Shown piece after piece: positions 1,285-35,466 of a stretch of 64,000 bases of DNA. Under the pieces are notes generated by a model that made no database searches, was not told the origin of the DNA, and was given only the letters and a program-made list of their open reading frames with translations. The stretch comes from a virus: IMG/VR virus record IMGVR_UViG_3300020152_000002, positions 1-64,000 of that record; one strand, given 5' to 3'. A program made the translations under genes and the position numbers. Numbering within the stretch: the first letter of the stretch is position 1; each line of letters starts with the position of its first letter.

Positions 1285-1533
1285 CTAGAGAATGGCGAAA
1301 GGGTCGTCCTCTGCCGGGGTTTCAGCGAGGCAAGCGAACGGGTCGGTCTCGGGCTCCTTGGCCGGTGCAGAACCCTCCGGCCGCCCCAGCGCATCCCACA
1401 GCAGGAAGGCGGCCTTGCGATCCCAGCTAGAGTCGCGCAGGCCCCGGATGCCACAGGAGTAGACCTTCTCGTCCGGCACACCGTCGAGCATCGCCGGGAA
1501 GTCATTGGCGAAGAACTTCTCGAACGGCGTCAT
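1285..1533 (-). CDS. hypothetical protein with C-terminal DDPFAIL motif, 82 aa
   Basis: Small acidic protein of unknown function. Its last third is low-complexity and carries two copies of a recurring phage motif: TDPFACL internally and DDPFAIL as the last residues. Its start codon overlaps the stop of the 1530-2111 gene (ATGA), which implies translational coupling. The residues before the tail, about 1-50, look folded (FFANDFPAMLDGVPDEKVYSC). Confidence 0.75.
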   Translation of the reverse strand: MTPFEKFFANDFPAMLDGVPDEKVYSCGIRGLRDSSWDRKAAFLLWDALGRPEGSAPAKEPETDPFACLAETPAEDDPFAIL

Positions 1534-2111
1534 TGAATGTCGAACTCATCATCGGCCACGGGGGCAGCCATATCGCGCGGTTCCCACCAGCCCCCGATAC
1601 GCGGGCGCAGCGGATCGTCCGGTTTGACATCGACGATCAGACCGTCCCCGTCGATCATGTAGGTCGGCAGCGAGTAGGTCGTCGAGTAGCTGGGATCAGC
1701 GCGCATTTGCAGATAATCGTAGAACGCATCCATGGCGTCCTGAAAGCGCGTGATCTGTAGGATGCGCGCATACTCGCGCAGTTCGTCGTCGTCGTGCCAG
1801 TTCCGCAGCCTGTCGAACGGGATCATGTCGAAGCACGACGCCATGGACCACGCCTGATACGTCGAACTCAACACGCGCTCATACCAGTAGACGCCCATGG
1901 GCAGCAGCGTCCCCAGCCCATCATAGAACCCGGCCCTGATCACCGTCACGAAGCCCGGTTCTTCATTCAGGGCAGCGCCCGGCTTGAAGTGACGCAGGAA
2001 GCGCACGACGGATGGGATCAGATACAGGTCATAGCGGCGGGGGTCAGACATCGGATCATAGGTCGGCAGGATAGGATCGCCCCAAGGGGTGACGCCAAAT
2101 CCGTAGTTCAT
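1530..2111 (-). CDS. hypothetical protein with C-terminal DDEFDIQ, 193 aa
   Basis: Aromatic-rich globular protein (many Tyr, Trp and Phe) with no family I recognise. The C-terminus VADDEFDIQ matches the tail motif DDEFDIL of the 20389-21876 product with only the last residue changed. It is co-transcribed with 1285-1533, sharing the ATGA overlap, and follows 2130-2858 by 18 nt. Confidence 0.75.
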   Translation of the reverse strand: MNYGFGVTPWGDPILPTYDPMSDPRRYDLYLIPSVVRFLRHFKPGAALNEEPGFVTVIRAGFYDGLGTLLPMGVYWYERVLSSTYQAWSMASCFDMIPFDRLRNWHDDDELREYARILQITRFQDAMDAFYDYLQMRADPSYSTTYSLPTYMIDGDGLIVDVKPDDPLRPRIGGWWEPRDMAAPVADDEFDIQ

Positions 2112-2129
2112 GCCGTCCGGCCCCTCTCG

Positions 2130-2858
2130 TTACATCAGGCCCGCGAACGGGTCGGCCTTGGGCTTCTGGATGACTTCGCCCCACTCGTCCACTTCGGGCT
2201 CGCCCTCGGCGGCCGGAGCGGGCTCCGCAGGGGCACTCTCGGGCTCGGCCGCGCCCATGTCCAGATCGGCGAAGGGATCGGCCTCCGGCGCACTCTCGAC
2301 GGCGCTGGCGGTCGGCTCGCTGCCCATGTCCAGATCGGCGAACGGATCGGGCTCGGCGGCCGTCAGGTCCAGATCGCCGGACAGGTCGATGTCGGCCGCC
2401 GGGGGCTCGGTGTGAGCCGCGTCCGTCAGGTCCGGGGCCGCGCCGGTCGTGGCAGGCTTGGCCGCCGCCCGGCTCCGGGTGCTCGGCACCGTCGCCTTGG
2501 GAGTGCCGCTGCCGCCCTTGGGCAGCGTGTCGTTCTCCACGTCCTGCCTGAACATGGCGTAGCCGTCCGCCCGCCTGAACGCCCAGCGCACGATGCCTTC
2601 GACCGGGAACGGACAGTAGATGAACGGCCCGTAGCGGTTGTCGCGGCCCAGCGGGAACTCGCTGCCCTCGACGCCCAGTGGCGTCTCCATCTGGTGCGGA
2701 TAGTTGCCGTCGCCAGTGTGCGCCTTCCACCAGAGTTCGTTCTGCTGCTGGATGCGCTTCTTGTAGTCCTCCCACGGCTCCGTGTTGCCGAAGGAGTGCC
2801 AGTTCGGCGGTTCGGCTCCGTAGAGAAGATACGGGTTCTTGGTAGTCGGAGTGACCAT
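2130..2858 (-). CDS. hypothetical protein with disordered tail and three DPFA[DG]L motifs, 242 aa
   Basis: Residues 1-100 look folded (NPYLLYGAEPPNWHSFG, WAFRRADGYAMFRQDVEND). The rest is a Pro/Ala/Glu-rich, probably disordered tail. That tail carries PDPFADLDMG, ADPFADLDMG and the terminal ADPFAGLM, plus VDEWGEVI, which is like TDEWGQII at the end of the 12063-13031 product. The repeated motifs in a flexible tail look like a multivalent short linear motif that recruits a partner. The partner is unknown. Confidence 0.75.
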   Translation of the reverse strand: MVTPTTKNPYLLYGAEPPNWHSFGNTEPWEDYKKRIQQQNELWWKAHTGDGNYPHQMETPLGVEGSEFPLGRDNRYGPFIYCPFPVEGIVRWAFRRADGYAMFRQDVENDTLPKGGSGTPKATVPSTRSRAAAKPATTGAAPDLTDAAHTEPPAADIDLSGDLDLTAAEPDPFADLDMGSEPTASAVESAPEADPFADLDMGAAEPESAPAEPAPAAEGEPEVDEWGEVIQKPKADPFAGLM

Positions 2859-2859
2859 A

Positions 2860-4686
2860 TCAGCCTCGCGGAAGGGGCGGGAGGAAGGACAGCAGGACGA
2901 CGAACATGACCAGCGCAGCGATGGCGCTGCCGAAGGCCATGGCGATCATCCACAGCGGGTTGACGGAGCGGATCGCCAGATGCTCGACTTCACCAACGAT
3001 CTGATGGTCCACGTTCGATCCAGCGGGATAGCTGTAGGAGCGCGTCGGCACCTTGCCCATCCCCTTGTTGATGAAGTCCGCGAACCACGCCTCGATCTCG
3101 GCCGTATCCTGCGGATCGTAGTCGCTGTCGATCATCGCCGTCAGCGTCATGGGGCGACCGTCGTAGCGCAGATGGTCCTTGTTGCGGATAACAAGCGCGC
3201 CGCCCGTGAAGTGCGTCATGCTGTCCTCGGGGCCGATCTCACGATGCGGGTCAGCGAAGCCGTGCCGGTCGATCCGTTGCCGCGTCGAACGCAGCACAGC
3301 TTCACGGGCTACCAGAGCGGCGTCGTCGCGTTGCACCATGCCGTCGTAGTCGTATTGGCCCAGCCGCTTGTCGATCCAGTCCACCATCGGCAGCGCATCG
3401 TCCTCGGCCTTGGCCGCAGCCGACGCCGCCGCGATGTTTTCCGGCGTGGCCGGAACGGGGATTTCGAGCGCGCCGATGATCTTGTCCAGCACGTTCAACT
3501 GGTGCTGCCAGTAGTCGTGATCGTCCTGCGTCTGCGCCTCGTCTCGCGCAATCGCCAGCGCCCGTCGCCAGTCGTTCTCGTGCGAGATGATGTCGGCGAT
3601 GGCGTCCGACCGGCTGTATTGATCCAGACCGACGCCGACGATGCTCTCGCGTTGCAGCCGGTCGTGAACGTCACCCAGCGTGGTCTCCGGCGGCAGGTGC
3701 CGCGCCAGACCTTCCTCGCGCAGTTCCTCCATTTCGAGCGCCACGCTGATGCGCTCGACGCCGCGCGCAATGCCCGGATGCCGGACGCCGCCAGTCCCCA
3801 AATGGTCGGCCAAGGAGTGCCGCTTGAACTGCCCGGCCGCCGACATGCGGCTCACCAGTTCACGCGAGTAGAAGGTTTCGCGCGATCCCTGCCGCTGATC
3901 CCGGATCAGTTCGAGATCGGCCCGAACGATTTCCTCCGGCGTGAAGTGCTCGCGGATCGCCTCGGCGATCTTCTGCGGCTCCACGTTGCCCAGCGCCGGG
4001 CTGGTCTTGTTATGGAAGTCACGCGCCAGTTGCAGCGTGATCCGGGCGACCTGATCGCCGTCCTTGGCGCGCTCGGCGAGGATGCCTTCGACCTGATCGT
4101 CATAGCGCGGCAGCAGAGGCAGATCGGCCTCCGAAACCATGTCGTTCGACGGGTCGCCGGGACCGCCGTCAACCGGGGGCTCGTGTTCTTGCTGCGCCAT
4201 GTCGGTGCTCTCCTGTGCGTCGCGCGTGTTCCGCATCTTGCGGTAGAGCGACCATGCGATGTTGCGGTTGGTTTCGTCGCGCTCGTAGATCAGTTCGAGC
4301 CACGACGGCTCGATCAGCTTTTCGGCGGCGAGCCACGCCCAGCCCTTCGGCGAGAACATCACCTGCGGAACCGACGTGGACAGTTTGAAGACGTAGCCCC
4401 AGTCGATCAGATTGCGGATCGCCGGGCCGACCGTCGTGGAGTTCAGGACCGTATCGCTCGTGTCGAACAGATGCCGCGTCTTCATCCCCGACGCATGACA
4501 GCGCCAGCGGCTCGGCTCCTTACCGACCGGGCGCGAACGCATCCGCACCTTGATCTCGGAACGCGCCAGCAGCGCCTCCATGGCGGCGCGACGAACTGGC
4601 GTCCACCAGCCCGGCATGTTGCTGGTGCCGTCGATATGAGTTTGGCGGTGTTCTTGAGTTGAGGCGCGGGTCACAGGATGTCCCAT
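2860..4686 (-). CDS. large membrane-anchored hypothetical protein with N-terminal winged-helix-like region, 608 aa
   Basis: Residues about 24-130 resemble a winged-helix module (AAMEALLARSEIKVR; TVGPAIRNLIDWGYVFKLS). The middle is mostly helical and charged. The end has one transmembrane segment (LWMIAMAFGSAIAALVMFVV) close to the C-terminus, so the bulk may sit in the cytoplasm. The start could be ATG 4686 or GTG 4674, the latter giving a GTGA overlap with the upstream stop. A well-formed ribosome site, AGGAG, lies 9-10 nt before an internal ATG at 4200, which would yield a 446-residue shorter form. No family recognised. Confidence 0.7.
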   Translation of the reverse strand: MGHPVTRASTQEHRQTHIDGTSNMPGWWTPVRRAAMEALLARSEIKVRMRSRPVGKEPSRWRCHASGMKTRHLFDTSDTVLNSTTVGPAIRNLIDWGYVFKLSTSVPQVMFSPKGWAWLAAEKLIEPSWLELIYERDETNRNIAWSLYRKMRNTRDAQESTDMAQQEHEPPVDGGPGDPSNDMVSEADLPLLPRYDDQVEGILAERAKDGDQVARITLQLARDFHNKTSPALGNVEPQKIAEAIREHFTPEEIVRADLELIRDQRQGSRETFYSRELVSRMSAAGQFKRHSLADHLGTGGVRHPGIARGVERISVALEMEELREEGLARHLPPETTLGDVHDRLQRESIVGVGLDQYSRSDAIADIISHENDWRRALAIARDEAQTQDDHDYWQHQLNVLDKIIGALEIPVPATPENIAAASAAAKAEDDALPMVDWIDKRLGQYDYDGMVQRDDAALVAREAVLRSTRQRIDRHGFADPHREIGPEDSMTHFTGGALVIRNKDHLRYDGRPMTLTAMIDSDYDPQDTAEIEAWFADFINKGMGKVPTRSYSYPAGSNVDHQIVGEVEHLAIRSVNPLWMIAMAFGSAIAALVMFVVLLSFLPPLPRG

Positions 4687-4895
4687 TGATGTTGCGTGAA
4701 GTCAGCGTGAAGGGCCACGATACACGCGGCGATCTTTTCCTGCAAGCCACCTTCGGGCTTGCCCGGTTCTACGATCCCGAGGATCGGCCGACCGGGGAGC
4801 GCGGGGTGCTCCACCCGGACGACGGCTGGCCCCCGGCCGAAGTCGAACTCGCGCACCGCGCAAGCCGCCACAAAGGCCGGGGGCACCGCCGTCAT
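4671..4895 (-). CDS. hypothetical protein ending QWDIL, 74 aa
   Basis: Small protein of unknown function. Its last residues, HQWDIL, match the WDIL tail of the 20131-20316 product and belong to the wider D-x-[FW]-[DA]-x-L group. The ATG overlaps the TGA of the preceding gene (TGATG at 4893-4897), so the two are probably coupled. Confidence 0.65.
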   Translation of the reverse strand: MTAVPPAFVAACAVREFDFGRGPAVVRVEHPALPGRPILGIVEPGKPEGGLQEKIAACIVALHADFTQHQWDIL

Positions 4896-11747: not shown

Positions 11748-12070
11748 TAGGACGCTCTACGAATGAACCCGACGAACCGGCCGCCGATATAGACGCCGTG
11801 CTGCCACGCGCGTCGATAGTCCTGCGCCGAATAGAACGGCCCCATGCGGTAGCTCCACATGTAGACGCCCCGCTCGAAGTTGTAGCCGATGCCGAGCGGC
11901 TTGGACACCCATCGCCACTCGGCACCCTCCGGCGGGTCCATGCGCTGCGGCAGGGCCGCCAGAGCCCGCGCCCGGAGGCGCAGGACCGGGGCGACCGCCC
12001 GGCGGCGCTGGGCTGCCCACCAGACGATGAGAGCCAGCCGCCGGGCCTGCCAGATCGACCGATCAGCCAA
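11747..12070 (-). CDS. hypothetical basic protein, 107 aa
   Basis: N-terminal amphipathic or membrane-associating helix (QARRLALIVWWAAQRRRAV) with Arg-rich flanks, then an aromatic domain (GIGYNFERGVYMWSYRMGPF). No recognised family. It shares base 11747 with the HNH gene start and overlaps the 12063-13031 gene by 8 nt. Confidence 0.65.
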   Translation of the reverse strand: MADRSIWQARRLALIVWWAAQRRRAVAPVLRLRARALAALPQRMDPPEGAEWRWVSKPLGIGYNFERGVYMWSYRMGPFYSAQDYRRAWQHGVYIGGRFVGFIRRAS

Positions 12071-13031
12071 TGATCTGCCCCCACTCGTCGGTGACGGGCT
12101 CGCTGGACGGCGCAGCCTCGGCCAAGGGAGCCGACGCCGGGGCTGCCAGTTCTTCCTCGCTGAACCCGGCTTCGCGGGCGACCCGGAACATCACGTCGCG
12201 GTTGAAGTTGGACAGCGTGGCGTCGTTCAGGGCCTCCCGGATGTCCGACAGCAGCGCCTCGCGCTTCGTCTGGCGCTCCTTCATCATCCGCTCGCGTTCG
12301 GCGGCGCGCTCGGCCGCTTCCCGCTCCGCCTGTTCGGCGCGCAGGCGTCGGTCTTCGAGCCACAGACGGTCTTCTTCGAGGATCGCCGGGCGGGTCTTGA
12401 GGCGGCCTTGCTCGGACAGCGTGGGGAACAGCATCAGGGCTTCTTCCTTCGACCCGAAGTTCTTGGCGTCGTGCATGAACATCTTGTCGCTGCTGTCACT
12501 GATGCGCTTCTCGTAGCTCATCACCGCTCCGCTCACGCGCGGATTGCGCGGCTCGGCATCGCTGGCGCGCGTCTCGCGTTCCCAGCCGTGGATTTCCCAC
12601 AGTTGCCCCCAGCCGTTGTCGATGCAGATGAAACCGACGACCCGATCTTCTTCCTCGTCCGCCAGAATGCCGGTGTCGATCACCGGGTAGACGGACTTGT
12701 AGCCGTAGCGACGGACACCGTAGGGGTTGTTCTCATCGGACGCATCCACGCGCTCGCCGAGCGTAAAGCCGATGGGTTCCGCCTTGAGCTTGGCGGCCAG
12801 CATCTTCGACTGGCACTTCGAGCACGGCCGAAACGCCTTCTCGTAGTCCGTCATTCCATAGGGCAGCGTGTAGGTGCCGAAGCTCGACTTGAACCCCCGG
12901 CCGGTCTCGCCGCACCACGCGGTGAAGTTCACGCGCTCCGGGCCGGTCGTGCCGTCGCCGTTCTGCGACAGTTCCCCGGTGTCCTCGCGGCTCTTGACGA
13001 TATGATCGCGGCGTCCAGATGAGCGGGCCAT
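12063..13031 (-). CDS. hypothetical protein with coiled-coil and C-terminal DEWGQIIG, 322 aa
   Basis: Residues 1-200 look folded with scattered Cys (WCGETGRGF, CSKCQSK) that may bind zinc. A Glu/Arg-rich coiled coil follows (about 215-265, RAEQAEREAAERAAERERM), then a Pro/Ala linker and the tail TDEWGQIIG. The DEWG-x2-[IV] signature also occurs in the tail of the 2130-2858 product. The start ATG 13031 has TAGGAGG 8-9 nt upstream, and the promoter at 13102-13131 drives it. Function unknown. Confidence 0.7.
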   Translation of the reverse strand: MARSSGRRDHIVKSREDTGELSQNGDGTTGPERVNFTAWCGETGRGFKSSFGTYTLPYGMTDYEKAFRPCSKCQSKMLAAKLKAEPIGFTLGERVDASDENNPYGVRRYGYKSVYPVIDTGILADEEEDRVVGFICIDNGWGQLWEIHGWERETRASDAEPRNPRVSGAVMSYEKRISDSSDKMFMHDAKNFGSKEEALMLFPTLSEQGRLKTRPAILEEDRLWLEDRRLRAEQAEREAAERAAERERMMKERQTKREALLSDIREALNDATLSNFNRDVMFRVAREAGFSEEELAAPASAPLAEAAPSSEPVTDEWGQIIG

Positions 13032-19521: not shown

Positions 19522-20064
19522 TTACTTCTTGCGCGGCTTGCGACCGGCGGGACCGTCCGGCTCGCTGCCCACGTCGTCCAGAGCGCCTTCCGCCTGCATC
19601 GCCTCGGCGGCTTCGCCAGCGTCGTGAACGCCGTCGCCTTCGGTCTGCATCTCGACGACTTCTTCACGGGTGTCGATCTCATCGAGCGACAGCGAGCCCT
19701 CGCCTTCGGCTCCGCCCTCCGGCGCAGCGGTGTCGATCTCGGGCAGCGCCTCGCCCGTGCCGTCGCCGACGATGGCTTCGCCGCCGACCGCATCGGCGTG
19801 TTGGATGCCCGCCCGTAGCGGCTCGCTCTCGGGCTCGCCCGGCAGCAGGTTGTCGCTGACCGACGTGTTGCGGCTGGACGCCACGCGGACGGCGGTGCTG
19901 TCGGCGATCTTGCGGGCGATCAGCCGGTCATCGGCGCTGGTCGGCCGGATCGCACCGAAGGCGGCGGCCTCGGCGATGTCCTGCTGGACGTTCTCGGCGA
20001 GGCGGCGACCCTTCGTGTAGACCGAACCGTTCGGGCGCTGGAAGGTGCAAGTCAGGAGCTTCAT
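19522..20064 (-). CDS. acidic, largely disordered protein, 180 aa
   Basis: The first 75 residues look ordered (MKLLTCTFQRPNGSVYTKG; DIAEAAAFGAIRP). The rest is Glu/Asp/Gly/Ala-rich and ends in a basic tag (GRKPRKK). Ribosome site CCGGAGGAAG upstream of the ATG and promoter at 20090-20119. Possibly a decoy or scaffold-like protein; function unknown. Confidence 0.65.
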   Translation of the reverse strand: MKLLTCTFQRPNGSVYTKGRRLAENVQQDIAEAAAFGAIRPTSADDRLIARKIADSTAVRVASSRNTSVSDNLLPGEPESEPLRAGIQHADAVGGEAIVGDGTGEALPEIDTAAPEGGAEGEGSLSLDEIDTREEVVEMQTEGDGVHDAGEAAEAMQAEGALDDVGSEPDGPAGRKPRKK

Positions 20065-20089
20065 GGCTTCCTCCGGGGAATGGGGCGTC

Positions 20090-20119
20090 AGGATAGGCAG
20101 ATCAGGTGTGGGTTCTCAA
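20090..20119 (-). promoter_or_regulatory. putative promoter for 19522-20064
   Basis: TTGAGA (20119-20114), 18-nt spacer, TATCCT (20095-20090) on the minus strand, about 26 nt before the ATG at 20064. Weaker than its neighbours. Confidence 0.45.
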
Positions 20120-20130
20120 GGCAGGGCGGG

Positions 20131-20316
20131 TCAAAGGATGTCCCATGCGGGATCGTCCGCCGGAACCATAGGCTCGGGCGGCTCGTAGGGATCGTCACGC
20201 AGCAGCGGACGCCACGGGCGACTGGGCCGCTCAAGCAGGTAGACTTGGGGGACCAGTTCGGCGTCCATCATGTCAGCGATCAGTTCCATCATCTCCGGTG
20301 CCAGTTGCGCCGCCAT
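20131..20316 (-). CDS. hypothetical protein ending ADDPAWDIL, 61 aa
   Basis: Helical N-terminus (AAQLAPEMMELIADMMDAEL) followed by a Pro-rich linker and the tail DDPAWDIL, one of the recurring C-terminal motifs. The first ATG (20316) directly follows a 7-bp GC hairpin and lacks a ribosome site, so the true start may be one of the ATGs around residues 9-10. Confidence 0.55.
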   Translation of the reverse strand: MAAQLAPEMMELIADMMDAELVPQVYLLERPSRPWRPLLRDDPYEPPEPMVPADDPAWDIL

Positions 20317-20364
20317 GCCCGCGCAACGCGGGCTGGCCCGGTCAGGTTCCGATCAGAGGGAATA

Positions 20365-20385
20365 GCCGGACACAGCGTGTCCGGC
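20365..20385 (-). terminator. hairpin terminator after 20389-21876
   Basis: GCCGGACAC and GTGTCCGGC form a perfect 9-bp stem with a 3-nt loop, followed on the minus strand by TATTCCC. It starts 4 nt after the stop of the upstream gene. Confidence 0.6.
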
Positions 20386-20388
20386 GTA

Positions 20389-21876
20389 TCACAGGATGTC
20401 GAACTCGTCGTCCGTGGCCGATATGTCGGGCGTGATGCGGTAGCCACCGCCATCCTTCGTGAAGGGAGGCGTCGGCGCTTCGATGATCCGCTCGGCTTCG
20501 CGCGCCACGGCGATCATGCTGTCCAGCGCAGCGGTGGTCGCCTCGGTCTCGGCGGCAGGCTTGATACGCAGGGCCATGATGCGTCCTTGCGGACCCCCGT
20601 CGCGGACGACCGTCACGCCCGGCGCACGAGCAGCCTTCTCGGCTTCGCGCTGCACTTCGTCAGACGGCCCGACAGGGATATAGCCATCTTCGTCGGCGGC
20701 ATGGAGCATCACCGGATCAGGCGGCGATCCGGTCATCTCACCGAGAATGTCCCACGGGTTTGTGGCCGTCTGGTAGATCGGCGTCCCGTCAGGCCATGCG
20801 CCAAACGACAGGTCCAGATCGGAAGGACCGTCACTCCCGGCAGGCGGATCAGACGGCAACATGATGTCCACGCCAGAGCCCTCGTAGGCGCTGTCGTCCG
20901 GCGCGAGTTCTCCGGTCGCCTCGGCGCGGATCGCGGCAGCCAGCATCGGCACGACGTGCTTCCCGGCGTCGGTCAGCCGCCAGTCGAACTTGCCCTTGCG
21001 CCGGATCAGGCCGAGCACGGCGAGCAGGCGGCAATGCTTGGCCGGACGCATCACGTCGGACAGGCCGGAGGCGAGCCAGTCCTGAAACCGCTGCGGACAC
21101 AGACGCGCAAGGGTGAAGCCGTCGCGCTCGCCGGAGGCCAGAGCAGCGGTGACGGCGCGCATCTCGTAAGAGCACCGCCAGTAGTCCACGTCGCCGTCAC
21201 GCACGAGTTGGATCATGCCCGCACCGTCCTCGGTCATGTTGAACGGACGAAGCTGGCGACCGTCCATGTGCGACGACTTCCACGCGACGCCGGGAAGGAT
21301 CGTCGTCTGCGTTAGGAAGGCGCATAGCTCGGGAGCGTATTCGACCGTGACGCGCGTCTCCGGCGTGAAGGACCGTCCTCCCTGTTTGCGCTGGGCCAGT
21401 TCGTCGAAGGCGAGTAGCAGTTCATTGGAGGGAATGAGACCATCCCCCCTCGGCGCAGGGAGCAATACCCCCAGCGCCTCGAACATGATGCCCCCCGGCA
21501 GTTTTGCGATGGGGGGTGGTCCAGACAGCCAGTCGAGGATGCCCTGCGGTAGCTCGGCCAAGACATCGGCCAAGGGAAAGAGCGGGGGAAGCGTCCGGCG
21601 GTCGCGGCTCATCGGCGGGAGCGCCTTGGCCCACGCTAGGCCGAAGGCGTTCAGCTTGAAGGCGCTCTCCGGGGGCCTGCCGTCGTTTATGCGGGAATCG
21701 GCGAGCGTTATTTGCGCCATGTTCCAGTCGGTCAGCTTGGTCTCGGACTTGGCGAACTGGCTGGTGCTGGCGGGGAGCGGATGCGGGTATTCCGCGTAGC
21801 ACTCCGCAAGGGCCTGATGGGTGTAGCGGTCGAGCCGAACCCAAGCCCGGCCTTGCTTTATTTGGATCATGGACAT
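20389..21876 (-). CDS. hypothetical protein with C-terminal DDEFDIL, 495 aa
   Basis: First gene left of the putative origin. The N-terminal half has helices with a possible winged-helix region around residues 270-330 (HCRLLAVLGLIRRKGKFDWR, then LTDAGKHVVPML). Residues 340-400 are acidic and disordered and contain NPWDIL; the last residues are ATDDEFDIL. A replication or regulatory role is suggested by its position next to the repeat region but not by a recognised domain. Promoter at 21912-21940. Confidence 0.7.
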   Translation of the reverse strand: MSMIQIKQGRAWVRLDRYTHQALAECYAEYPHPLPASTSQFAKSETKLTDWNMAQITLADSRINDGRPPESAFKLNAFGLAWAKALPPMSRDRRTLPPLFPLADVLAELPQGILDWLSGPPPIAKLPGGIMFEALGVLLPAPRGDGLIPSNELLLAFDELAQRKQGGRSFTPETRVTVEYAPELCAFLTQTTILPGVAWKSSHMDGRQLRPFNMTEDGAGMIQLVRDGDVDYWRCSYEMRAVTAALASGERDGFTLARLCPQRFQDWLASGLSDVMRPAKHCRLLAVLGLIRRKGKFDWRLTDAGKHVVPMLAAAIRAEATGELAPDDSAYEGSGVDIMLPSDPPAGSDGPSDLDLSFGAWPDGTPIYQTATNPWDILGEMTGSPPDPVMLHAADEDGYIPVGPSDEVQREAEKAARAPGVTVVRDGGPQGRIMALRIKPAAETEATTAALDSMIAVAREAERIIEAPTPPFTKDGGGYRITPDISATDDEFDIL

Positions 21877-21911
21877 GGTGACGGGTCTCTGATGCGGGAT
21901 GTGAACCTTAT

Positions 21912-21940
21912 TTGTTACGCGGTGTCGGGGGCCGGGTCAA
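21912..21940 (-). promoter_or_regulatory. sigma-70-like promoter for 20389-21876
   Basis: TTGACC (21940-21935), 17-nt spacer, TAACAA (21917-21912) on the minus strand, about 36 nt before the ATG. Confidence 0.55.
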
Positions 21941-22250
21941 CAGAGGGGGTTTGGAGGGCGATTTCGGGGGTCGGAGATGGTGGTTATGCGTTTATTCTAG
22001 GGGTGCGCCAAGTCGGGCTTACAAGTAGCAGGTGACGACATTAATAGGTAGTATATGTGTGGGGTGAGATTAAATGATGCGCCCTGACATCGCTATCGGG
22101 GTTGACGGCAAAAAAGCCGATGGTGTGGTGGAAGTGTAAAAATAGTTCTCCCTATGGGACTATATTATTCTTCTCAATAAAATAAAATAAAGATAAAAGC
22201 TAAAACCGGCTGTCCTTGGCCGCAGATCGTGCTCGCAGTCCGCATCACGC

Positions 22251-22330
22251 CGGAAAACGCAGAAGGTGATGCAGAAAATCGGTTTCAAACCTGCGCGGAA
22301 AACGCAGAAGGTGAATCGGAAAATCGGTTT
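22251..22330 (+). repeat. tandem 35-bp direct repeats (45-bp period)
   Basis: 22251-22285 and 22296-22330 match at all but four clustered positions. Both begin CGGAAAACGCAGAAGGTGA and end GAAAATCGGTTT, and they differ at TGCA versus ATCG in the middle. A 61-codon ORF across them (22266-22451) is a by-product of the repeats. Confidence 0.8.
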
Positions 22331-22383
22331 GGAGGCTAGGATCGAACGGAAAATGGTAAATCTGAATAAAAGCGGGCATCACG

Positions 22384-22746
22384 TTAACCTTAACACGCCG
22401 TTAACCTTAAAAAGTAGGGTTAACGCAGCATTAAGGTTAATCGGCCGGTAAGGTTAATCACACAGTAACCTTAAAAGTTAAGGTTAATCGGGTAAGGCGA
22501 AGAAGTAAGGTTAATCGGCATAAAACTGTTAACCCTACTTCGCTGTTAAGGTTAATCAGGGGTTAACATTCACGCCTTGTTAACCTGAATAGTTAAGGTT
22601 AACCCGGTTAAGCAGTCCTGTTAACGCTACCAAACATGGTTAACCGCATTAACCACCGCCGTTAATCACGTCTGTTTACGCAATCTTAACGAATCTGTGC
22701 CCATGGGGAGCCACGGTTAATGTTCCATGAATGACCGGAACATTAA
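22384..22746. repeat. array of 27 TTAA sites with TAAGGTTAATC iterons
   Basis: Twenty-seven TTAA tetramers occur in 363 bp of an otherwise GC-rich genome. Six direct copies of TAAGGTTAA[TC]C (starting near 22430, 22448, 22477, 22506, 22545 and 22592) alternate with reversed copies TTAACCTTA. Spacings repeat at 6, 11, 13 and 17 nt. Three pairs have TTAA-N7-TTAA spacing (22390, 22420, 22552), the spacing of CtrA boxes. Iterons for an initiator or operator sites are possible roles. Confidence 0.75.
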
Positions 22747-22748
22747 CC
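22715..22748. repeat. perfect 12-bp inverted repeat with 10-nt loop
   Basis: GGTTAATGTTCC (22715-22726) and GGAACATTAACC (22737-22748) are exact reverse complements. Dyad operators and origin hairpins look like this. It forms the right edge of the TTAA array. Confidence 0.8.
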
Positions 22749-22945
22749 AGTCCGCAGAACGCAGCCGGAACAAAACGTAGACGTTTGCGAACTCCGATTT
22801 TTTCGACCCGTGACACCGGAGACGGCAGAAAACCGCTCCACGGGCTTAAAAACGGCCTTTCTGGGCATTCTCATTATGGGACACCTTTTCGGCGTCCTTT
22901 TTACGCCGTCCGCATCAAAAAGCGGGTTTTCGCAGTCCGCATTAG

Positions 22946-22974
22946 TTGACTGTTAAGCGGCGCGCGCGTAGAAC
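22946..22974 (+). promoter_or_regulatory. sigma-70-like promoter for the rightward 23.1-26.2 kb operon
   Basis: TTGACT (22946-22951), 17-nt spacer, TAGAAC (22969-22974) on the plus strand. The first gene begins at 23113, leaving a leader of about 130 nt. Confidence 0.6.
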
Positions 22975-23112
22975 CGTCATGTTAGGTCTTTGACATCGTT
23001 TATCCCTCCCGCGTCCGGCTAGTCCGGCGCGGCTTTGTGCATCCCTTCGCGGGAACTGACACAGACTAACCGGCCGCAATGACGCGGCCTGATCATCTAG
23101 GGAAACACACAG

Positions 23113-26672: not shown

Positions 26673-27371
26673 ATGTCCGCTCTCGCCCTCCAATCCGACG
26701 ACTACATGCGCGTCGAACCGCTCGGCCCCGCCGAGAAGGCGGAGATCGTAGACGCGCTCTACAAGCACTTCTCGATGCAGAAGGTCGTCGAAGCCACAGG
26801 CTACGATCTGCGGCGGATTATGACCGCCATCGACGAAGACCCGGAGTTCTCGAACGCCATGGCGCTCGCCGAACGGCACCTGTCGGTGATCGGTGAGGAC
26901 GAGCTTAAGCGCCGCGCGATCCACGGGGTCGATAGCGTCGTGGTCGCCAACGGCCGCGTCGTCTATCAGGTCGTGGACGGCGTTCGCCGCCCGATGGTCG
27001 AGACCAAATACAGCGACGCGCTGCTCAAGACCTATCTCGAAGCCAACCGGCGCGACAAGTTCGGTGCCAAGCTCGAAGTGACCACCACGCACAAGGGCGT
27101 CATCGCCCTGCCTGCGTTCTCGCCCGAGATGATGCAGCTTCTCTTGGCCGATGCCAGAGGGGAGCGCGTCGAACTGATCGTGGATCAGGAGATGGACGCC
27201 GAGGACAAGCCGGAAGTGATCGACGCCGAATACAGCGTCGTCGGGGAAGCCGCCAACACGGACGCCGAGTTCGAGCGCGCCGATGATGAGACGATCCGTC
27301 AGCGCGTCCGGGAGATGACCCGCGAGACGGTCCCGGAGTCGGCCACGGAAGACGGCTTCGACATCCTGTGA
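26673..27371 (+). CDS. terS: terminase small subunit, 232 aa
   Basis: Directly upstream of the large terminase gene and coupled to it (GTGA). Residues about 20-60 form a helix-turn-helix-like element (IVDALYKHFSMQKVVEATGY, then DLRRIMTAIDEDPEFSNAMA), as in small terminases that bind packaging sites. The rest is helical with an acidic tail ending ATEDGFDIL, one of the recurring C-terminal motifs. ATG 26673 is preferred over an upstream TTG at 26619. Identification rests on position and the N-terminal fold. Confidence 0.75.
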   Translation: MSALALQSDDYMRVEPLGPAEKAEIVDALYKHFSMQKVVEATGYDLRRIMTAIDEDPEFSNAMALAERHLSVIGEDELKRRAIHGVDSVVVANGRVVYQVVDGVRRPMVETKYSDALLKTYLEANRRDKFGAKLEVTTTHKGVIALPAFSPEMMQLLLADARGERVELIVDQEMDAEDKPEVIDAEYSVVGEAANTDAEFERADDETIRQRVREMTRETVPESATEDGFDIL

Positions 27372-28954: not shown

Positions 28955-30514
28955 ATGGCCCGACAACCCAAGTCCGTCGTAGACAATGCCCGGAGGCAGG
29001 CCCGCCAGACCAAGGCGGCGCTGGACCCCTCCACGCCTTCGCTCGACTACAAGGCGCTGCAAGGCGACTGGAACCTGATCTCGACGGTGCTGGGCGGCAC
29101 GAAGTCGATGCGCGCGGCCGGGAAGTCCCTGCTGCCGCAGCACGAAGGCGAGAGCGATCTGCGCTACAAGGATCGCCTGAACAGCGCCACCTTCACGAAC
29201 TACACGGCGCTGACGCTCGATCACTGGTGCGGCAAGCCGTTCTCGAAGCCCGCCGTCATCTCGAAGGACAGCGACCCCGACATCATCAAACTAGCGGCCG
29301 ACATCGACCTGTGTGGCTCCGAACTGACGGTGGTCCTGAAAGACTGGTTCACGAAGGGCATGGCGAAGCGCCGTGCCTACTGCCTCGTCGAGTATCCGAA
29401 GGTGCCGGATCACATTCGGGCTCGCGGCGTGACCTTGGCCGACGAACAGCGTCTCAATCTGCGCCCTTACTGGGTGATCATCCCGGCGGAGGCGATGATC
29501 GCGCCCCGCAAGGAGCGGGTGAACGGCGAAGACATCTTCACGAACGTCCGCTTCTACGACAACGAGACCTACTACGACGGTTTCGAGGAAAAGGTGCGGG
29601 TCCGCATCCGCGAGATCGAACGTGCGGTCCTCGAACGCGACGAGTTCGGCGACGAAGTGAGCGTCGTCGTGCGGACGCGCCTTCACGTCAAGAAGGATCG
29701 CAACGAGTGGGACACGAAGGACTGGGAAACGGTCGATGCGCCGGATAACCTGATCACGCTCGTCGAGTTCGACACCGGCAAGCTCGAACTGCTCGATCTC
29801 GCCTACCTGAACATCACGCACTGGCAGTCGGCGTCGGATCAACGCAACTGCCTGACCACCGCGCGCTTCCCGATCCTCGCGGCCAAGGGCGTCGCGGCGG
29901 ATACGGTCGTGACCATCGGCCCCTACGCCTTCCTCGCGTCGAAGGACTCGAACAGCGAGTTCTACTACGTCGAGCACGGAGGCGCGGCGCTGGACGCCGG
30001 GCAGACCGATCTCGACAAGCTCACCGAAGACATGGCGCTCTACGGGGCGGAGATGCTGAAACAGCGTCCCGACCGGGAGACCGCAACATCTCGGGTTCTG
30101 GACCAAGCAGAAAACACAGCCCCCTTGCAGGTGCATGTGTTCAACTTCATCAGCGCCGTCAACATGGCGCTGTATTACACCGCTCGTTGGCTGGACAAGC
30201 CCGAGAACACGGTGGCGCGCATCGAGATGGATACTGACTTTGCGCTGTCGGCGGAAGCGACGCAAAAAGTCGATCACTTGAAGGAACTTCGCAAGTCGGG
30301 GGACATTTCACGCAAGCAACTTCTCACTGGCATGAAAGAGGCCAAGGCTCTGCCCGACAGCTTCGACATCACCGCCAATGAGTCGGAGCTTGACGCGGAA
30401 GCCGATGCCAAGGCCACAAAGGCGGCGGACGCGGCGAAGAAGCTGGCAGCCGCCAGTCCACCCAAACCCGCTCCGGGTAGTCCGGGCGGGAAGACCCCGG
30501 AGAAAGACCAATGA
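28955..30514 (+). CDS. portal protein (DUF4055-like), 519 aa
   Basis: Located after the large terminase, with features of DUF4055-type portals: DRLNSATFTNYTALTLDHWC near 68-87, LRPYWVIIPAEAMI near 167-180, and YLNITHWQSASDQRNCLTTA near 284-303. Helical C-terminal region and a Lys/Ala/Pro-rich tail. Portals form the dodecameric vertex through which DNA enters. Confidence 0.88.
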   Translation: MARQPKSVVDNARRQARQTKAALDPSTPSLDYKALQGDWNLISTVLGGTKSMRAAGKSLLPQHEGESDLRYKDRLNSATFTNYTALTLDHWCGKPFSKPAVISKDSDPDIIKLAADIDLCGSELTVVLKDWFTKGMAKRRAYCLVEYPKVPDHIRARGVTLADEQRLNLRPYWVIIPAEAMIAPRKERVNGEDIFTNVRFYDNETYYDGFEEKVRVRIREIERAVLERDEFGDEVSVVVRTRLHVKKDRNEWDTKDWETVDAPDNLITLVEFDTGKLELLDLAYLNITHWQSASDQRNCLTTARFPILAAKGVAADTVVTIGPYAFLASKDSNSEFYYVEHGGAALDAGQTDLDKLTEDMALYGAEMLKQRPDRETATSRVLDQAENTAPLQVHVFNFISAVNMALYYTARWLDKPENTVARIEMDTDFALSAEATQKVDHLKELRKSGDISRKQLLTGMKEAKALPDSFDITANESELDAEADAKATKAADAAKKLAAASPPKPAPGSPGGKTPEKDQ

Positions 30515-31194
30515 ACAAGACCCCCTACGTCGGCATGACTGTCGTCGTCCATGATCGCGGCCGTCCGCAGGCCGGGCGCGATGTCCACCCCGCCATCATC
30601 ACGCAGGTCGTGAACGAAGGTGCGGGCACCATCGCCGTCCGCGTCCTGCCCGAACAGGGCGTGGACTACCCGATCAAGGCCATCAACTACATGCACGGCG
30701 ACGCCTACATGGAGGGCCTGTCGTGGCGCTGGCCCGAAGACCCGTCCAAGGTCCAGACCGGCGCTGGCGAGGCCCGCACCCCGGCTCCGCAGGACGTGGC
30801 GGCCCCGACGCCGGGCGACCACGAGCCCCGCACCGTCGCCGGGAAGGAAGTCGCCAAGCCGGGCGACGCTCCGCAGGCCGGTCAGTCCAGCGACGTGACG
30901 GGCGAAGGCTCGCTCGCGGCGCAGGACGGCAACGCCGACGCGGCGGAAGGGGAGGGCGGCGACGATCCGTTCGCCAACCTGACCGACACCCCGCAGGACG
31001 GCAAGAAGCCCGCTGACGGTGCCGACAGCGCCTCGGTCGCCAACGCGGCCGGGAACGTCGCCGACACCGCCGCCGGAGCCGACGCCAACACGTCCGACGC
31101 GACGAAGGGCAGCCTGACGGCCGCCTCGGAAGGCGCGCAGAAGGCGGGCGACAAGGCCGCCGACAAGAAGGACGACGGCAAGAAGGCCAAGTAA
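30511..31194 (+). CDS. hypothetical head-region protein with disordered tail, 227 aa
   Basis: Residues 1-70 form a compact beta domain (PYVGMTVVVHDRGRPQAG; GTIAVRVLPEQGVDYPI). The rest is Ala/Asp/Gly/Lys-rich and disordered, with one DDPFANL motif, and ends in KKAK. ATGA overlap with the portal gene. Possibly a minor capsid or internal protein. Confidence 0.6.
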   Translation: MNKTPYVGMTVVVHDRGRPQAGRDVHPAIITQVVNEGAGTIAVRVLPEQGVDYPIKAINYMHGDAYMEGLSWRWPEDPSKVQTGAGEARTPAPQDVAAPTPGDHEPRTVAGKEVAKPGDAPQAGQSSDVTGEGSLAAQDGNADAAEGEGGDDPFANLTDTPQDGKKPADGADSASVANAAGNVADTAAGADANTSDATKGSLTAASEGAQKAGDKAADKKDDGKKAK

Positions 31195-32105: not shown

Positions 32106-32158
32106 ACTTCATTCACCACCCCCGTTACGCACGGTTCAGATCAGGGTAAGCACTCCCC

Positions 32159-32980
32159 ATGGAAGACTTCTACTTCGAGGACAACGCGGAACTCCCGGAG
32201 GCGGAGTTCGAGAGCAAAGTCCCGGCGGACTTCCGCTTCGCCTACACGAAGGGCGACGGCGGCACCTACAAGCTGAACGACCAATACGCCGCCGCCGCCA
32301 AGCTGATCGACGGCCGGGGTCGGACGCTCAAGCAGGCGAAGGCCACGAACCAGTCGGTCGGCCTCGAAAGCAAGCAGCGCCGCGAAACCCTCGAAAAGTG
32401 GGCCGCCGAGACCGGCTTCGAGTCGCCGGAAGCGGCGAAGGAAGCCATCGCCGCCATGCAGGAGAAGATCAACTCCAAGTCGGCGATCAAGCCGGAGGAA
32501 GTTCGCGCCGCCATCGAGAAGGAGTTCACCGGCAAGCTCGAAGCGTCCGAGAAGAAGGCGGAAGCCATGTTCTCGACGCTGGAAAAGCACCTGCGCGACA
32601 AGGACGCCCTGTCGGCCATCGCCGAGCACAAGGGCAACGCGAAGCTGCTGATGCCGCTGATCCTCGCGCAGACCAAGGTCGTGCAGGACGAAGACACCGG
32701 GGAGTATTTCACCGCTGTCCTGAACGCGAAGGGCGAAGTCCGCGCCGGAGCGGACGGCGGCCCGCTGTCCATCAGCAAGCTCGTCGCCGAGATGAAGGAA
32801 GACAAGGACTTGGCGTCCGCCTTCGAGGGCTCGCAGAAGAACGGTGGCGGCACCGATCCGAAGCAGCAGCAACAGCGCGGCCCGCATCAGCCGACCAACC
32901 AGCAGCGTCGGGAAGGCGGCGAAGATCGCGCCCAGCGCGGCATCAGCAAGATCAGCGCGGGGCTCGCGCAACGCCGCTGA
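32159..32980 (+). CDS. scaffolding protein, 273 aa
   Basis: Highly charged helical protein placed directly before the major capsid gene, with a central helix-rich domain (EKEFTGKLEASEKKAEAMF; LLMPLILAQTKVVQDEDTGE) and a Gln/Arg-rich tail ending ISKISAGLAQRR. These traits are typical of capsid scaffolds that are removed during maturation. No protease gene is visible next to it. Confidence 0.75.
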   Translation: MEDFYFEDNAELPEAEFESKVPADFRFAYTKGDGGTYKLNDQYAAAAKLIDGRGRTLKQAKATNQSVGLESKQRRETLEKWAAETGFESPEAAKEAIAAMQEKINSKSAIKPEEVRAAIEKEFTGKLEASEKKAEAMFSTLEKHLRDKDALSAIAEHKGNAKLLMPLILAQTKVVQDEDTGEYFTAVLNAKGEVRAGADGGPLSISKLVAEMKEDKDLASAFEGSQKNGGGTDPKQQQQRGPHQPTNQQRREGGEDRAQRGISKISAGLAQRR

Positions 32981-33045
32981 TCGAGGCTTGACGGCAAAAT
33001 CGTTAACGAGCCGACTTGAAAACGGCCGTTAACCATGACAAGGAT

Positions 33046-33070
33046 CAGGGCGCGCTCACAACGCGCCCTG
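33046..33070 (+). terminator. intrinsic terminator between scaffold and capsid genes
   Basis: CAGGGCGCG and CGCGCCCTG form a 9-bp perfect stem, followed by TTTCGTTT. Partial termination here would raise capsid-only transcripts if a promoter follows. Confidence 0.65.
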
Positions 33071-33080
33071 TTTCGTTTCC

Positions 33081-33129
33081 GGGGGGATACCCGGCGCAGG
33101 GAGCGGGACGGCACGGGGGGATACCCGGC
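33081..33129 (+). repeat. 15-bp direct repeat upstream of the capsid gene
   Basis: GGGGGGATACCCGGC occurs at 33081-33095 and 33115-33129, 34 bp apart, just after the terminator and 45 bp before the ATG. The spacing of about three helical turns is compatible with protein binding or promoter elements. Confidence 0.75.
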
Positions 33130-33133
33130 ATGT

Positions 33134-33165
33134 CCACAAGAGCGGTGAAAACCCCTTTCTGTGGA
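33134..33165 (+). promoter_or_regulatory. hairpin overlapping the capsid gene ribosome site
   Basis: TCCACA (near 33132-33137) can pair with TGTGGA (near 33160-33165), which contains the GGAG ribosome site of the capsid gene. It could slow translation until it is opened. It is only a 6-bp stem. Confidence 0.35.
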
Positions 33166-33173
33166 GACATCCC

Positions 33174-34115
33174 ATGGCGTCCGTGACGCTCGAAGAAGCC
33201 GGTAAGCTGGCGGAAGACCAACTCGTTCAAGGCGTGATCGAGGAAATCATCGACTCGAACCCCATGTTCGAGATTTTCCCGTTCGAGGGCATCGACGGCA
33301 ACTCGCTGGCCTTCAACCGCGAGAACACGCTGGGCGACGTGCAGGTGCTCGGCGTCGGCGGCACCATCACCGCCAAGAACCCCGCGACGTTCACCCGCGT
33401 CAACGCCAACCTGACCACGATCCTCGGCGACGCCGAAGTCAACGGCCTCATTCAGGCCACCCGGTCGGGCAACGTGGACCAGAAGGCGCAGCAGATCGCG
33501 TCCAAGGCCAAGTCGGCGGCCCGCAAGTATCAGGACATGATGATCAACGGCACCGGCGTCGGTGACGAGTTCGTCGGCCTGCGCGGTCTGGTCGCCAACA
33601 GCCAGAAGGTCAACGCCAAGACGGCGGGCGACGACACGAACGGCGGCGTCCTGACGTTCGAGCTTCTCGACGAACTGCTGGACATGATCAAGGACAAGGA
33701 CAGCCGTCCCGACTTCCTGATGATGTCGGCGCGTGAACGCCGTCGCGTTCAGCAACTCCTGCGCGCCATGGGCGGTGCGTCTCCGGCCGATGTCTACACG
33801 ATGCCGTCCGGCGAGCAGATCATCGCCTACAACAACGTCCCCATCTTCATCAACGACTACATCCCGACGAACCTGACGCGCGGCAACCGTTCGGACGCCT
33901 CGGTCATCTTCGCCGGGACGTGGGACGACGGCTCGCTGACCCACGGCATCTCGGGCCTGACCGCCCGGAACGCGGCGGGCATCAGCATCGTGGAAGTCGG
34001 CCAGTCCGAGACCAAGGACGAGGAAATCACCCGCGTCCGCTGGTATTGCGGGATGGCGAACTTCTCGCAGAAGGGCCTCGCCATGCTGCAATACGTCGTG
34101 CCGCCGACCAGCTAA
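33174..34115 (+). CDS. major capsid protein, HK97-type, 313 aa
   Basis: Follows the scaffold gene. N-terminal helix (TLEEAGKLAEDQLVQGVIEE), a long spine-helix-like segment (VDQKAQQIASKAKSAARKYQ, then DMMINGTG), a beta-rich P-domain and a C-terminal part (WYCGMANFSQKGLAMLQYVV) fit the HK97 fold of double-stranded DNA phage capsids. It is probably the most abundant virion protein. Confidence 0.85.
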   Translation: MASVTLEEAGKLAEDQLVQGVIEEIIDSNPMFEIFPFEGIDGNSLAFNRENTLGDVQVLGVGGTITAKNPATFTRVNANLTTILGDAEVNGLIQATRSGNVDQKAQQIASKAKSAARKYQDMMINGTGVGDEFVGLRGLVANSQKVNAKTAGDDTNGGVLTFELLDELLDMIKDKDSRPDFLMMSARERRRVQQLLRAMGGASPADVYTMPSGEQIIAYNNVPIFINDYIPTNLTRGNRSDASVIFAGTWDDGSLTHGISGLTARNAAGISIVEVGQSETKDEEITRVRWYCGMANFSQKGLAMLQYVVPPTS

Positions 34116-34131
34116 GGCGGCTTGCGCCCAC

Positions 34132-34161
34132 GGCGGGTCTGGCCCTATGGTCAGGCCCGCC
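34132..34161 (+). terminator. hairpin after the capsid gene
   Basis: GGCGGGTCTG and CAGGCCCGCC pair over 10 bp with one T-G wobble. A TTCTTT stretch follows about 10 nt later. Likely partial terminator. Confidence 0.5.
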
Positions 34162-34225
34162 GCTCGGGCGTTCTTTCGCGTTCGTGTAGGCTTTCAACCA
34201 ACCCTCATTGAGAGAGGCACCAGAG

Positions 34226-34810
34226 ATGGCCCTGTTCAAAGTGGTTCTGCAAAGCGGAGCCTTCACGACGCTGGGCGGCAACAACGCCATGATCGTCGAA
34301 GCGGACAACGCCGCCGACGCCAAGGCCGCCGCCATGAACTATTCCGGCGACGACGCCGCCCCGTGGGATCAGGCGGTCGCCACCGAGATCACCCCCGACG
34401 CCACCTTCGCCGGGCTCCGGCTCGAAGTCCGCATCACGGCGGATGCGGACAACGGCTTCGACGAAGACGTGGTGATCGACTACACCGTGCCGGAAGGCGC
34501 GTCCGCCGATACCGTCGATGAGATCGGCGCGCTGCTGGTGGCGGAGATGAACGCTCACGCCGATCTGGCGGGCGTCACCTACACGTCGGGCTCCGACACC
34601 GTGACCATCGTGGAGGCCAACAACGTCGGCCTGTCCGCAATCTCCGCCAAGGTCTACGCGACCGGCGCGGCCGGTGAATACGAAGTCACCGGCATGGCCC
34701 CCACGGTCGGCGCGGTCGGTCTCGACGCCTCGTCGGATCGCACCATCGTCCTGACCCCGCTGGGCAACGGCCGTCCGGTCGTCGTCACCGGCTACAAGAC
34801 GGGCATCTGA
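34226..34810 (+). CDS. head protein with a domain shared with the tail tube, 194 aa
   Basis: Starts MALFKVVLQSGAFTTLGGNN after GAGAGG. Residues 68-163 (LEVRITADADNGFDEDVVID ... EVTGMAPTVGA) closely resemble residues 185-274 of the tail tube product (42068-43948), with the same order of DNG, YT, AH, TYT, A-x-N-x-G and GMAPT. The role is probably a capsid decoration or structural protein. It is located between the capsid gene and other head genes. Confidence 0.65.
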   Translation: MALFKVVLQSGAFTTLGGNNAMIVEADNAADAKAAAMNYSGDDAAPWDQAVATEITPDATFAGLRLEVRITADADNGFDEDVVIDYTVPEGASADTVDEIGALLVAEMNAHADLAGVTYTSGSDTVTIVEANNVGLSAISAKVYATGAAGEYEVTGMAPTVGAVGLDASSDRTIVLTPLGNGRPVVVTGYKTGI

Positions 34811-34818
34811 TACTGCCC

Positions 34819-35466
34819 ATGAAAGCCGAGAACCAATCCATGCTGATCGCGGAAGCGCAAGGTCAGCAGACAATCCAAGCCCTGTTCATGCAGACCGGGC
34901 CGAAGGAACAGGGCGTCATTCTCAACTGCCAGTTCGAGCGCGACCCGGAAGACGGCAAGCTCTACTACGTCTTCACCGGGACGGCCGATCACTACATGCA
35001 GTTCCGGTCGCTGATGGCCGACTACGCCGTCCGGCCGGTCCACGAGATCGAGGGCCACCGCCTGAACCCGAAGACGCACGAGGCCGCCGCCCAAGAAGCG
35101 GGCGAGGCCGCGCCGGTCGTGGACACCGCCCCGGCGGAGTCGAAGTCGGCGGCCGACACGGGCGACAACCCGCCGGAGCTTTCCGCCACCGAAGGCGAGA
35201 TCGTCCGGCCCGAAGGAGACGCCGATGTCGCATCGGTTCACAGTCCCGGCCAACCTGCCGACAGCGGGCAATCCTCGCCCGCTCCGGGTGGTGAAGCCAG
35301 CGGGGCCAGCGCCGGGGATCACGCTGATGACCGGAGCGGACATGCTGGGGAACCCGGAGCTTCGGATCGGGGTGCCGGGGGAGAAGCCGCCGCCGCGAAC
35401 GGTGCTGGCACCGTCAGCGGAGAAGTGAAGCCGGGCTCGGCGAGCGATCCGTTCGCTGACCTTTAA
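34819..35466 (+). CDS. hypothetical head-region protein with disordered tail ending SDPFADL, 215 aa
   Basis: Residues 1-85 are ordered (MLIAEAQGQQTIQALFMQTG; FERDPEDGKLYYVFTGTADH). The rest is Glu/Ala/Gly-rich and disordered and ends in SDPFADL, one of the recurring tail motifs. The disordered part is overlapped by a different reading frame with its own ribosome site (35225-35428). Confidence 0.65.
   Translation: MKAENQSMLIAEAQGQQTIQALFMQTGPKEQGVILNCQFERDPEDGKLYYVFTGTADHYMQFRSLMADYAVRPVHEIEGHRLNPKTHEAAAQEAGEAAPVVDTAPAESKSAADTGDNPPELSATEGEIVRPEGDADVASVHSPGQPADSGQSSPAPGGEASGASAGDHADDRSGHAGEPGASDRGAGGEAAAANGAGTVSGEVKPGSASDPFADL
35225..35428 (+). CDS. candidate overprinted gene inside 34819-35466, 67 aa
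   Basis: Open frame nested in another frame of the host gene. It starts MSHRFTVPANLPTAGNPRPL with AGGAGA about 5 nt upstream of the ATG. The product looks less repetitive than the host-frame translation of the same DNA. Its stop, TGA at 35426-35428, is inside the host gene. It may be a small head protein (VVKPAGPAPGITLMTGADM). Confidence 0.45.
   Translation: MSHRFTVPANLPTAGNPRPLRVVKPAGPAPGITLMTGADMLGNPELRIGVPGEKPPPRTVLAPSAEK

Follow-up and report, generated by a model that had tools for sequence, protein, structure and literature searches.

Why should unrelated proteins of one phage end in nearly the same few residues? The question is raised by a 64,000-nt window, bases 1–64000 of the 87,606-bp virus record IMGVR_UViG_3300020152_000002, in which a series of proteins finish in an acidic stretch followed by a short tip such as FDIL, WDIL or PFADL. 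The remaining part of the record was also analysed. It represents a Brevundimonas-type siphophage of 115 proteins, 88 of them encoded in the window and 27 outside it. Comparison of protein sequences across phages indicates that this C-terminal tag very probably serves as a shared docking tag for a partner encoded by the phage itself, whatever the identity of that partner.

The nearest named relatives of the record are the isolated Brevundimonas siphophages Leszy, Delta, BabaJaga, Poludnitsa and Fanboy, with 80–83% nucleotide identity over the matched parts. Genes were called with our own script, which reproduced 111 of the 113 annotated stop codons of Leszy; for C-termini, only the stops matter. 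For wider comparison of proteomes, we used IMG/VR relatives of the primase together with phage records. This set includes G001 (the contig of locus L019, whose primase is 48% identical), G002 (the contig of L020), G008 (the contig of L040) and G003, a single relative contig obtained via a search with the terminase small subunit (TerS). A second set (Enc34, V18, Danisaur, SR18, AhaSv, eiAU and T7) was picked by the presence of a T7-type single-stranded DNA-binding protein (SSB) alone and not by the tag, and all of its members were kept in the test whatever tips they had.

A recurrent tag at protein C-termini

The tag is composed of an acidic stretch and a terminal [FWY]-D-I-L (seen as FDIL, WDIL, FDIQ or FDIR), or the variant D-P-F-[AD]-x-L. 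The initial annotation of the window listed eight such C-termini and several internal copies, all of which are present in the sequence where they were placed. The recurrence that it described is real, but D-x-[FW]-[DA]-x-L, the formula given for it, is too restrictive and the two forms given above fit the tips better. The tag is carried at the C-terminus by 12 of the 115 proteins of the record, where shuffled sequences predict ∼0.1. An excess over shuffled proteins is also seen for the pattern originally proposed, which occurs at the very C-terminus of 6 of the 88 window proteins (shuffle mean 0.03, with a maximum of 1 in 2000 shuffles), and in the 27 proteins outside the window, a hold-out set in which [FW]-D-I-x-end is found in 3 where 0.01 would be expected. 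The mean net acidic charge of the last 25 residues is 5.0 in tagged proteins and 0.2 in the others. As a group, the internal copies show no enrichment (14 observed versus 11.0 ± 3.6 in shuffles), and the tag signal is therefore mainly C-terminal; the internal copies in the products of 1285–1533, 2130–2858, 20389–21876 and 30511–31194 are nonetheless conserved in orthologues.

The relatives of the tagged proteins keep the motif. All 12 orthologue groups (12/12) retain a tip in each of the five isolated Brevundimonas phages, and thus across all six phages, at ∼80% nucleotide identity and with F/W swaps, one-residue changes in length and changes of codon; QHQWDIL corresponds to SQDFDIL, for example, and DDPFDIR to RTAFDIL. 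Because the tips persist across orthologues despite the F/W and codon changes, selection acts on the protein. Within the record, the tips of the tagged genes use differing codons and all three stop codons, so it is the amino acids that are kept.

Tips match within a phage and differ between lineages

Tips of the form [FWY]DI[LIQR]?-end number 8 each in this phage, Delta and Leszy, 5 each in G003 and G001, and 0 in 18 other phages or loci. Related phages have tips of their own. G001 has WDIL or WDII on five proteins. G002 bears EDMI-like tips on its primase and portal, on a number of small early proteins and on the product of the gene that immediately follows the major capsid gene (the ‘post-capsid protein’); in this genome, [DE][DEG][ML][IV]-end occurs 7 times. 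The tips of G004 and G007 are DFG/DFE, that of RcRudolph is DPLA, that of RDJL6 is FPDDL, and Bradleyvirinae-type phages have FLD. Among the phages picked by their SSB, Hafnia phage Enc34 has five proteins that end in DEV (primase, exonuclease, SSB, TerS and the post-capsid ORF17), while its ORF3 ends in EEEEV. In Ruegeria phage V18, DLLG closes the post-capsid gp55 as well as the primase, exonuclease and SSB. Proteus phage Danisaur carries DDDL/DDDI on gp6, the post-capsid gp19 and the SSB. Caulobacter phage SR18 contains DQV and RDLV pairs and no FDIL, AhaSv and eiAU show little sharing of tips, and in T7 gp2.5 ends in DGDF and gp4 in DTDF.

Sharing within a phage far exceeds the cross-genome background when pairs of non-homologous proteins with similar tips are counted: 21 versus 2.1 in Leszy (p 1e-14), 15 versus 1.5 in G001 (p 1e-10), 12 versus 1.3 in G002 (p 2e-8) and 14 versus 2.2 in this phage (p 8e-8). 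Prophage-type control loci contain 0–1 such pairs. The tag is absent from temperate prophages with a related primase, and those checked are without the phage PolA/SSB module. Five related virus records contain neither this PolA (the phage A-family DNA polymerase) nor this SSB, and for four of these records the loci with called genes are among the prophage controls.

Primase, exonuclease, SSB and post-capsid protein have tips that change in concert between lineages. Over 20 lineages, mean within-phage tip similarity is 10.10, as opposed to 6.75 ± 0.32 when tips are permuted among phages, and covariation is detected for primase–SSB (p 5e-5), primase–exonuclease (p 5e-5) and exonuclease–SSB (p 9e-4), as well as for the post-capsid protein against primase, exonuclease or SSB (p 0.001–0.007); these p values are somewhat optimistic, given the relatedness of the Casjensviridae lineages to one another and likewise of those in the Brevundimonas group. 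An earlier test on 12–16 lineages gave p ∼1e-4 for primase–SSB and ∼0.002 for primase–exonuclease. Two results weigh against a single docking partner in the replication core: TerS tips match poorly overall (primase–TerS p 0.37 in the 20 lineages), and in the 12 lineages compared first the SSB and exonuclease tips were not significantly alike.

It is conceivable in principle that no shared partner exists, the acidic tails being a general solubility or ssDNA-mimic feature whose likeness stems from genome composition or recombination of gene ends. Acidic tails are indeed common in the T7-type SSB family. Such an origin is very improbable, since the tips are sequence-specific and match within and not between phages, and 38 control pairs of families outside primase, SSB and exonuclease (polymerase, helicase, terminase, tail and others) show no match, with a mean excess of 0.03. 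Three of these 38 pairs fall below 0.05, two of them involving the portal, which is itself tagged in G002. In addition, the DNA coding for the tips differs, and shuffles that preserve composition do not yield them. An artefact of composition is ruled out by the shuffles, the cross-genome background and the control gene pairs, and a spread of gene ends by duplicated DNA is ruled out by the differing codons and stops.

The history of one carrier is especially informative. The gene for a GapR-like DNA-binding protein (record 66961–67341, minus strand; Pfam PF10073; tip DDPFDIR) adjoins the phage SSB and PolA genes; homologues are present in several related phages and in some of these bear the tag of the phage concerned. 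The G001 and G002 versions are without a tip; those of the Brevundimonas phages end in AFDIL or PFDIR, and that of L065, whose SSB ends in EDFLD, in DDDFLD. The gene has thus gained a tip independently in two lineages, each time that of its own lineage, which is hard to explain without a shared, co-diverging partner.

Proteins that carry the tag

Search of the complete proteome and of relatives, as the initial annotation had proposed, added four carriers outside the window whose tips are kept in relatives: the GapR-like protein and three proteins of the replication region. The primase-polymerase (record 73899–76367; PF09250, PHROG 1156) ends in IDEWDIL and the DUF2800/Cas4-like exonuclease (record 69093–70580; PF10926 DUF2800, PHROG 69) in GDAFDIL. 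The T7-type SSB (record 67966–68652; PF10991, PHROG 112) ends in ADEFQL, a weaker form of the tag. A further motif, [AS]x[DE][DE]F, is present in the SSB tail and near the C-terminus of the DUF2800 exonuclease, separate from the terminal tip; it is broadly conserved in phages of Firmicutes and Proteobacteria (loci L225–L302).

Three window proteins with the tag or an internal copy of it are associated with packaging or the head genes, all on the plus strand. TerS (26673..27371; PHROG 4044, E 7.5e-17) ends in TEDGFDIL, a tip kept in relatives. The protein encoded after the portal gene (30511..31194) contains an internal DDPFANL in its disordered tail, conserved in relatives, and has no C-terminal tip. 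The post-capsid protein (34819..35466) consists of a small N-terminal domain and a long, disordered, low-complexity linker that terminates in SDPFADL. The same layout is found in its Enc34, V18, Danisaur and G002 counterparts, each ending in the tag of its own phage. We take its position to be reminiscent of that of lambda gpFI.

The remaining six window carriers lie on the minus strand, and Pfam and PHROG searches gave no family match for any of them or for the post-capsid protein. The 82-residue protein at 1285..1533 ends in EDDPFAIL and contains an internal TDPFACL; DDPFAIL is present in all six phages. The 193-residue protein at 1530..2111 ends in ADDEFDIQ, with ADDEFDI in the five relatives. 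The 242-residue protein at 2130..2858 has a disordered tail with two internal DPFADL copies and the tip ADPFAGLM, for which the relatives have ADPFDL tips and two internal copies. Near its C-terminus is a second motif, DEWG[EQ][VI]I, shared with the otherwise unrelated product of 12063–13031 (instances are VDEWGEVI and TDEWGQIIG, and TDEWGEIISGA in Delta). A 74-residue protein (4671..4895) ends in QHQWDIL, replaced in relatives by SQDQWDIL, SQDFDIL or SQEFDI with exchange of W and F, and a 61-residue protein (20131..20316) ends in DDPAWDIL, replaced by DDVWDIL or ENVWDIL. Finally, the 495-residue protein at 20389..21876 contains an internal NPWDIL and ends in TDDEFDIL; LDDEFDIL is found in all relatives despite divergence of the preceding tail, and no IMG/VR relative of this protein was confirmed. 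The carriers are unrelated proteins, as first described, with the same tip on non-homologous primase, exonuclease, DNA-binding and packaging proteins.

Between divergent gene blocks is an intergenic stretch at ∼21900–23100 of the window with a G+C content of 0.55 (22–24 kb bin) compared with ∼0.64. It matches a 1.3-kb gap reported for phage Delta and is likely to be regulatory.

The partner is probably encoded by the phage

The tag was originally interpreted as a shared docking tag for one partner, either a phage hub or a host protein. The first half of this proposal is well supported by conservation, by matching within lineages and by the independent gains of the GapR-like gene. The host options (protease adaptor, clamp or other host factor) are disfavored. 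Phages of one host family carry different tips, and the partner is therefore probably phage-encoded: three Rhodobacteraceae phages have three tips (DPLA in RcRudolph, FPDDL in RDJL6 and DLLG in V18), and among phages of Caulobacteraceae, the DQV/RDLV of SR18 contrasts with the FDIL of the Brevundimonas phages. A degron or adaptor tag directed at the host would be expected to be the same in phages of the same host, unlike what is seen in either family. FDIL-stop is also not enriched in 115 alphaproteobacterial genomes, none of them known as Brevundimonas or Caulobacter (∼40 matches, with a similar number in the reversed control). The D-[MIL]-[ILF] tips loosely recall the QL[SD]LF core of the clamp motif, in which Gln is described as important and not strictly necessary (PMC11139829). 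Most tips are without Gln, however; only the 4671–4895 family has Gln before W/F, a position occupied by E, P, A, G or V in the rest. A sliding clamp, protease, adaptor or chaperone of the host is accordingly an improbable partner.

The tag may then be a short linear motif whose lineage-specific address is read by one phage-encoded partner in the replication core. Tentatively, and with slightly less than even confidence, we place the receptor in the T7-type (DUF2815/Enc34-like) SSB that the phage itself encodes, specifically in its concave ssDNA groove. The protein itself is confidently assigned (PF10991, 97 bits; PHROG 112, E 4.6e-33). It has an OB-fold with a capping helix, and Foldseek matches to 4jg2, 4klk, 5odl and T7 1je5 place it in the DUF2815/Enc34/T7 gp2.5 fold class. 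It also has a long acidic C-terminal tail, ...DFGDLTADEMAFDDPAAGIMPGDGADEFQL. The SSB of Enc34 (ORF6; PDB 5odj, 5odk and 5odl) belongs to the same family, and its C-terminus sits in the β-sheet groove of a neighboring molecule (PMC5686142). That tail is treated in the Enc34 study as part of the SSB only (PMC5686142), whereas Enc34 tags five proteins with DEV. The initial annotation called the tag unlike the canonical SSB tail; this is correct with respect to DDDIPF, but the tag resembles and covaries with the tail of the phage's own T7-type SSB.

In such a mechanism, the acidic tip of the SSB would occupy the SSB groove when no DNA is present, and the exposed tips of primase, exonuclease and GapR-like protein would be captured on SSB-coated DNA at forks. 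DNA ends and proheads would be recruited to the same SSB site through the tags of TerS and the capsid-linked protein. Co-evolution of tip and groove would then leave each phage lineage with a code of its own.

The main rival partner is PolA, on whose basic patches the tips of primase, SSB, exonuclease and others would dock in an expanded version of the T7 arrangement. PolA is present in all tagged phages checked (fragments aside), is never tagged and ends in a conserved basic RYRK. In G008, the PolA reading frame (19970–21445) contains one in-frame TGA, possibly reflecting stop-codon recoding or a frame error. T7 offers a precedent: gp2.5 and gp4 share a tip, the acidic tails of gp4 bind basic patches of the polymerase gp5 (PMC12593628), and a structure of the polymerase with a tail peptide is available (PDB 6p7e). 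PolA as the receptor accounts less readily for the tips of TerS and a capsid-associated protein, and we regard it as unlikely. Two AlphaFold2 predictions bear on the choice. They were made for natural read-through chains that tether the tagged GapR-like protein to PolA or to the SSB, and as these are monomers and not true complexes, only pLDDT (predicted local distance difference test) values and secondary structure are usable. Beside a confidently predicted PolA, the tag is a disordered coil with pLDDT 31–34, which is weak evidence against docking there; in the chain with the SSB, the terminal F-D-I is modelled as a short β-strand with pLDDT just above 50. This contrast would mildly favor the SSB over PolA.

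Several observations count against the SSB groove as the receptor. The AlphaFold2 contrast is weak and uneven, as the tag is mid-chain beside PolA and a true C-terminus in the SSB chain, confidence is ∼50 and there is no contact map. The nearest solved precedent, that of T7 (PDB 6p7e; PMC12593628), has a tail of this type bound to the polymerase. In the Brevundimonas phages, the SSB ends in DEFQL and not FDIL, and in G001 it ends in DDVQF; in this phage, primase DEWDIL and SSB DEFQL are similar and not identical. The head-associated protein, the portal (in G002) and several of the early proteins are not obvious SSB partners.

Another phage protein could fill the role, among them the SNF2-like helicase, the primase, the terminase large subunit or a small protein such as the 108-residue product encoded between the SSB and exonuclease genes (record 68681–69007). 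The SNF2-like helicase is present in most tagged phages. Of the genomes compared, only those of the lineages with the largest tag sets (the Brevundimonas phages, G001 and G002) were found to have the gene for the 108-residue protein; its absence from the other tagged phages implies that this protein is not a general partner. With no positive structural or covariation sign for any of these proteins, a receptor of this kind seems doubtful. The SSB groove remains the site that we prefer.

Relationship to known docking systems

Docking through C-terminal tails is already known in T7, in bacterial SSBs and in clamp systems. T7 provides a minimal case, in which the primase(-helicase) has its acidic C-terminal tip in common with an SSB that belongs to this fold family. 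In T7, two proteins with a terminal Phe are involved, whereas here there are about a dozen, including terminase, capsid-linked and early proteins, with a lineage-specific tip and a candidate partner. The terminal aromatic residue of the T7 tails is not found here, where most tips end in L, I or V. The bacterial SSB tail (DDDIPF) is likewise acidic and disordered and finishes in a short hydrophobic tip; there, however, one SSB tail binds many partners, while here many proteins carry the tip and the receptor is likely to be single. Its terminal Phe also has no counterpart in FDIL, WDIL or PFADL, which end in Leu or Ile and in which -P-F- is not terminal. The motifs that bind the bacterial β-clamp, PCNA or the T4 gp45 clamp offer a different likeness, as one short and often C-terminal motif directs many unrelated DNA enzymes to one hub. 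The clamp motif is anchored by Gln and conserved across bacteria, unlike the tag, which is without Gln and changes with the phage lineage. No clamp was found by family searches of the replication genes tested.

No description of a shared C-terminal tag in phages was found in the papers that could be searched, which is weak evidence of novelty given that most subscription journals were outside this scope. What would be new here is a lineage-specific code over about a dozen proteins, spanning those of replication and packaging.

Implications for replication and packaging

It is evenly balanced, in our judgment, whether the pattern extends to many siphoviruses with a T7-type SSB. These phages would use a phage-specific C-terminal address code on primase, exonuclease, SSB, terminase and capsid-linked protein to assemble replication, recombination and packaging on one phage-encoded hub, and code and receptor would co-diverge so that the modules of different phages become incompatible. 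If this is true, a simple rule would account for the physical link between replication of the phage genome and its packaging, which has long been suspected and has been mechanistically vague, and the T7 gp2.5/gp4 tails would become part of a general, lineage-coded system. Members of the replication and packaging assembly could be found among uncharacterized proteins from sequence alone, in this record the products of 1285–1533, 1530–2111, 2130–2858, 4671–4895, 20131–20316 and 20389–21876. The tips would also offer peptides with which phage replication might be inhibited in the laboratory, and their divergence would suggest a barrier to module compatibility in phage recombination.

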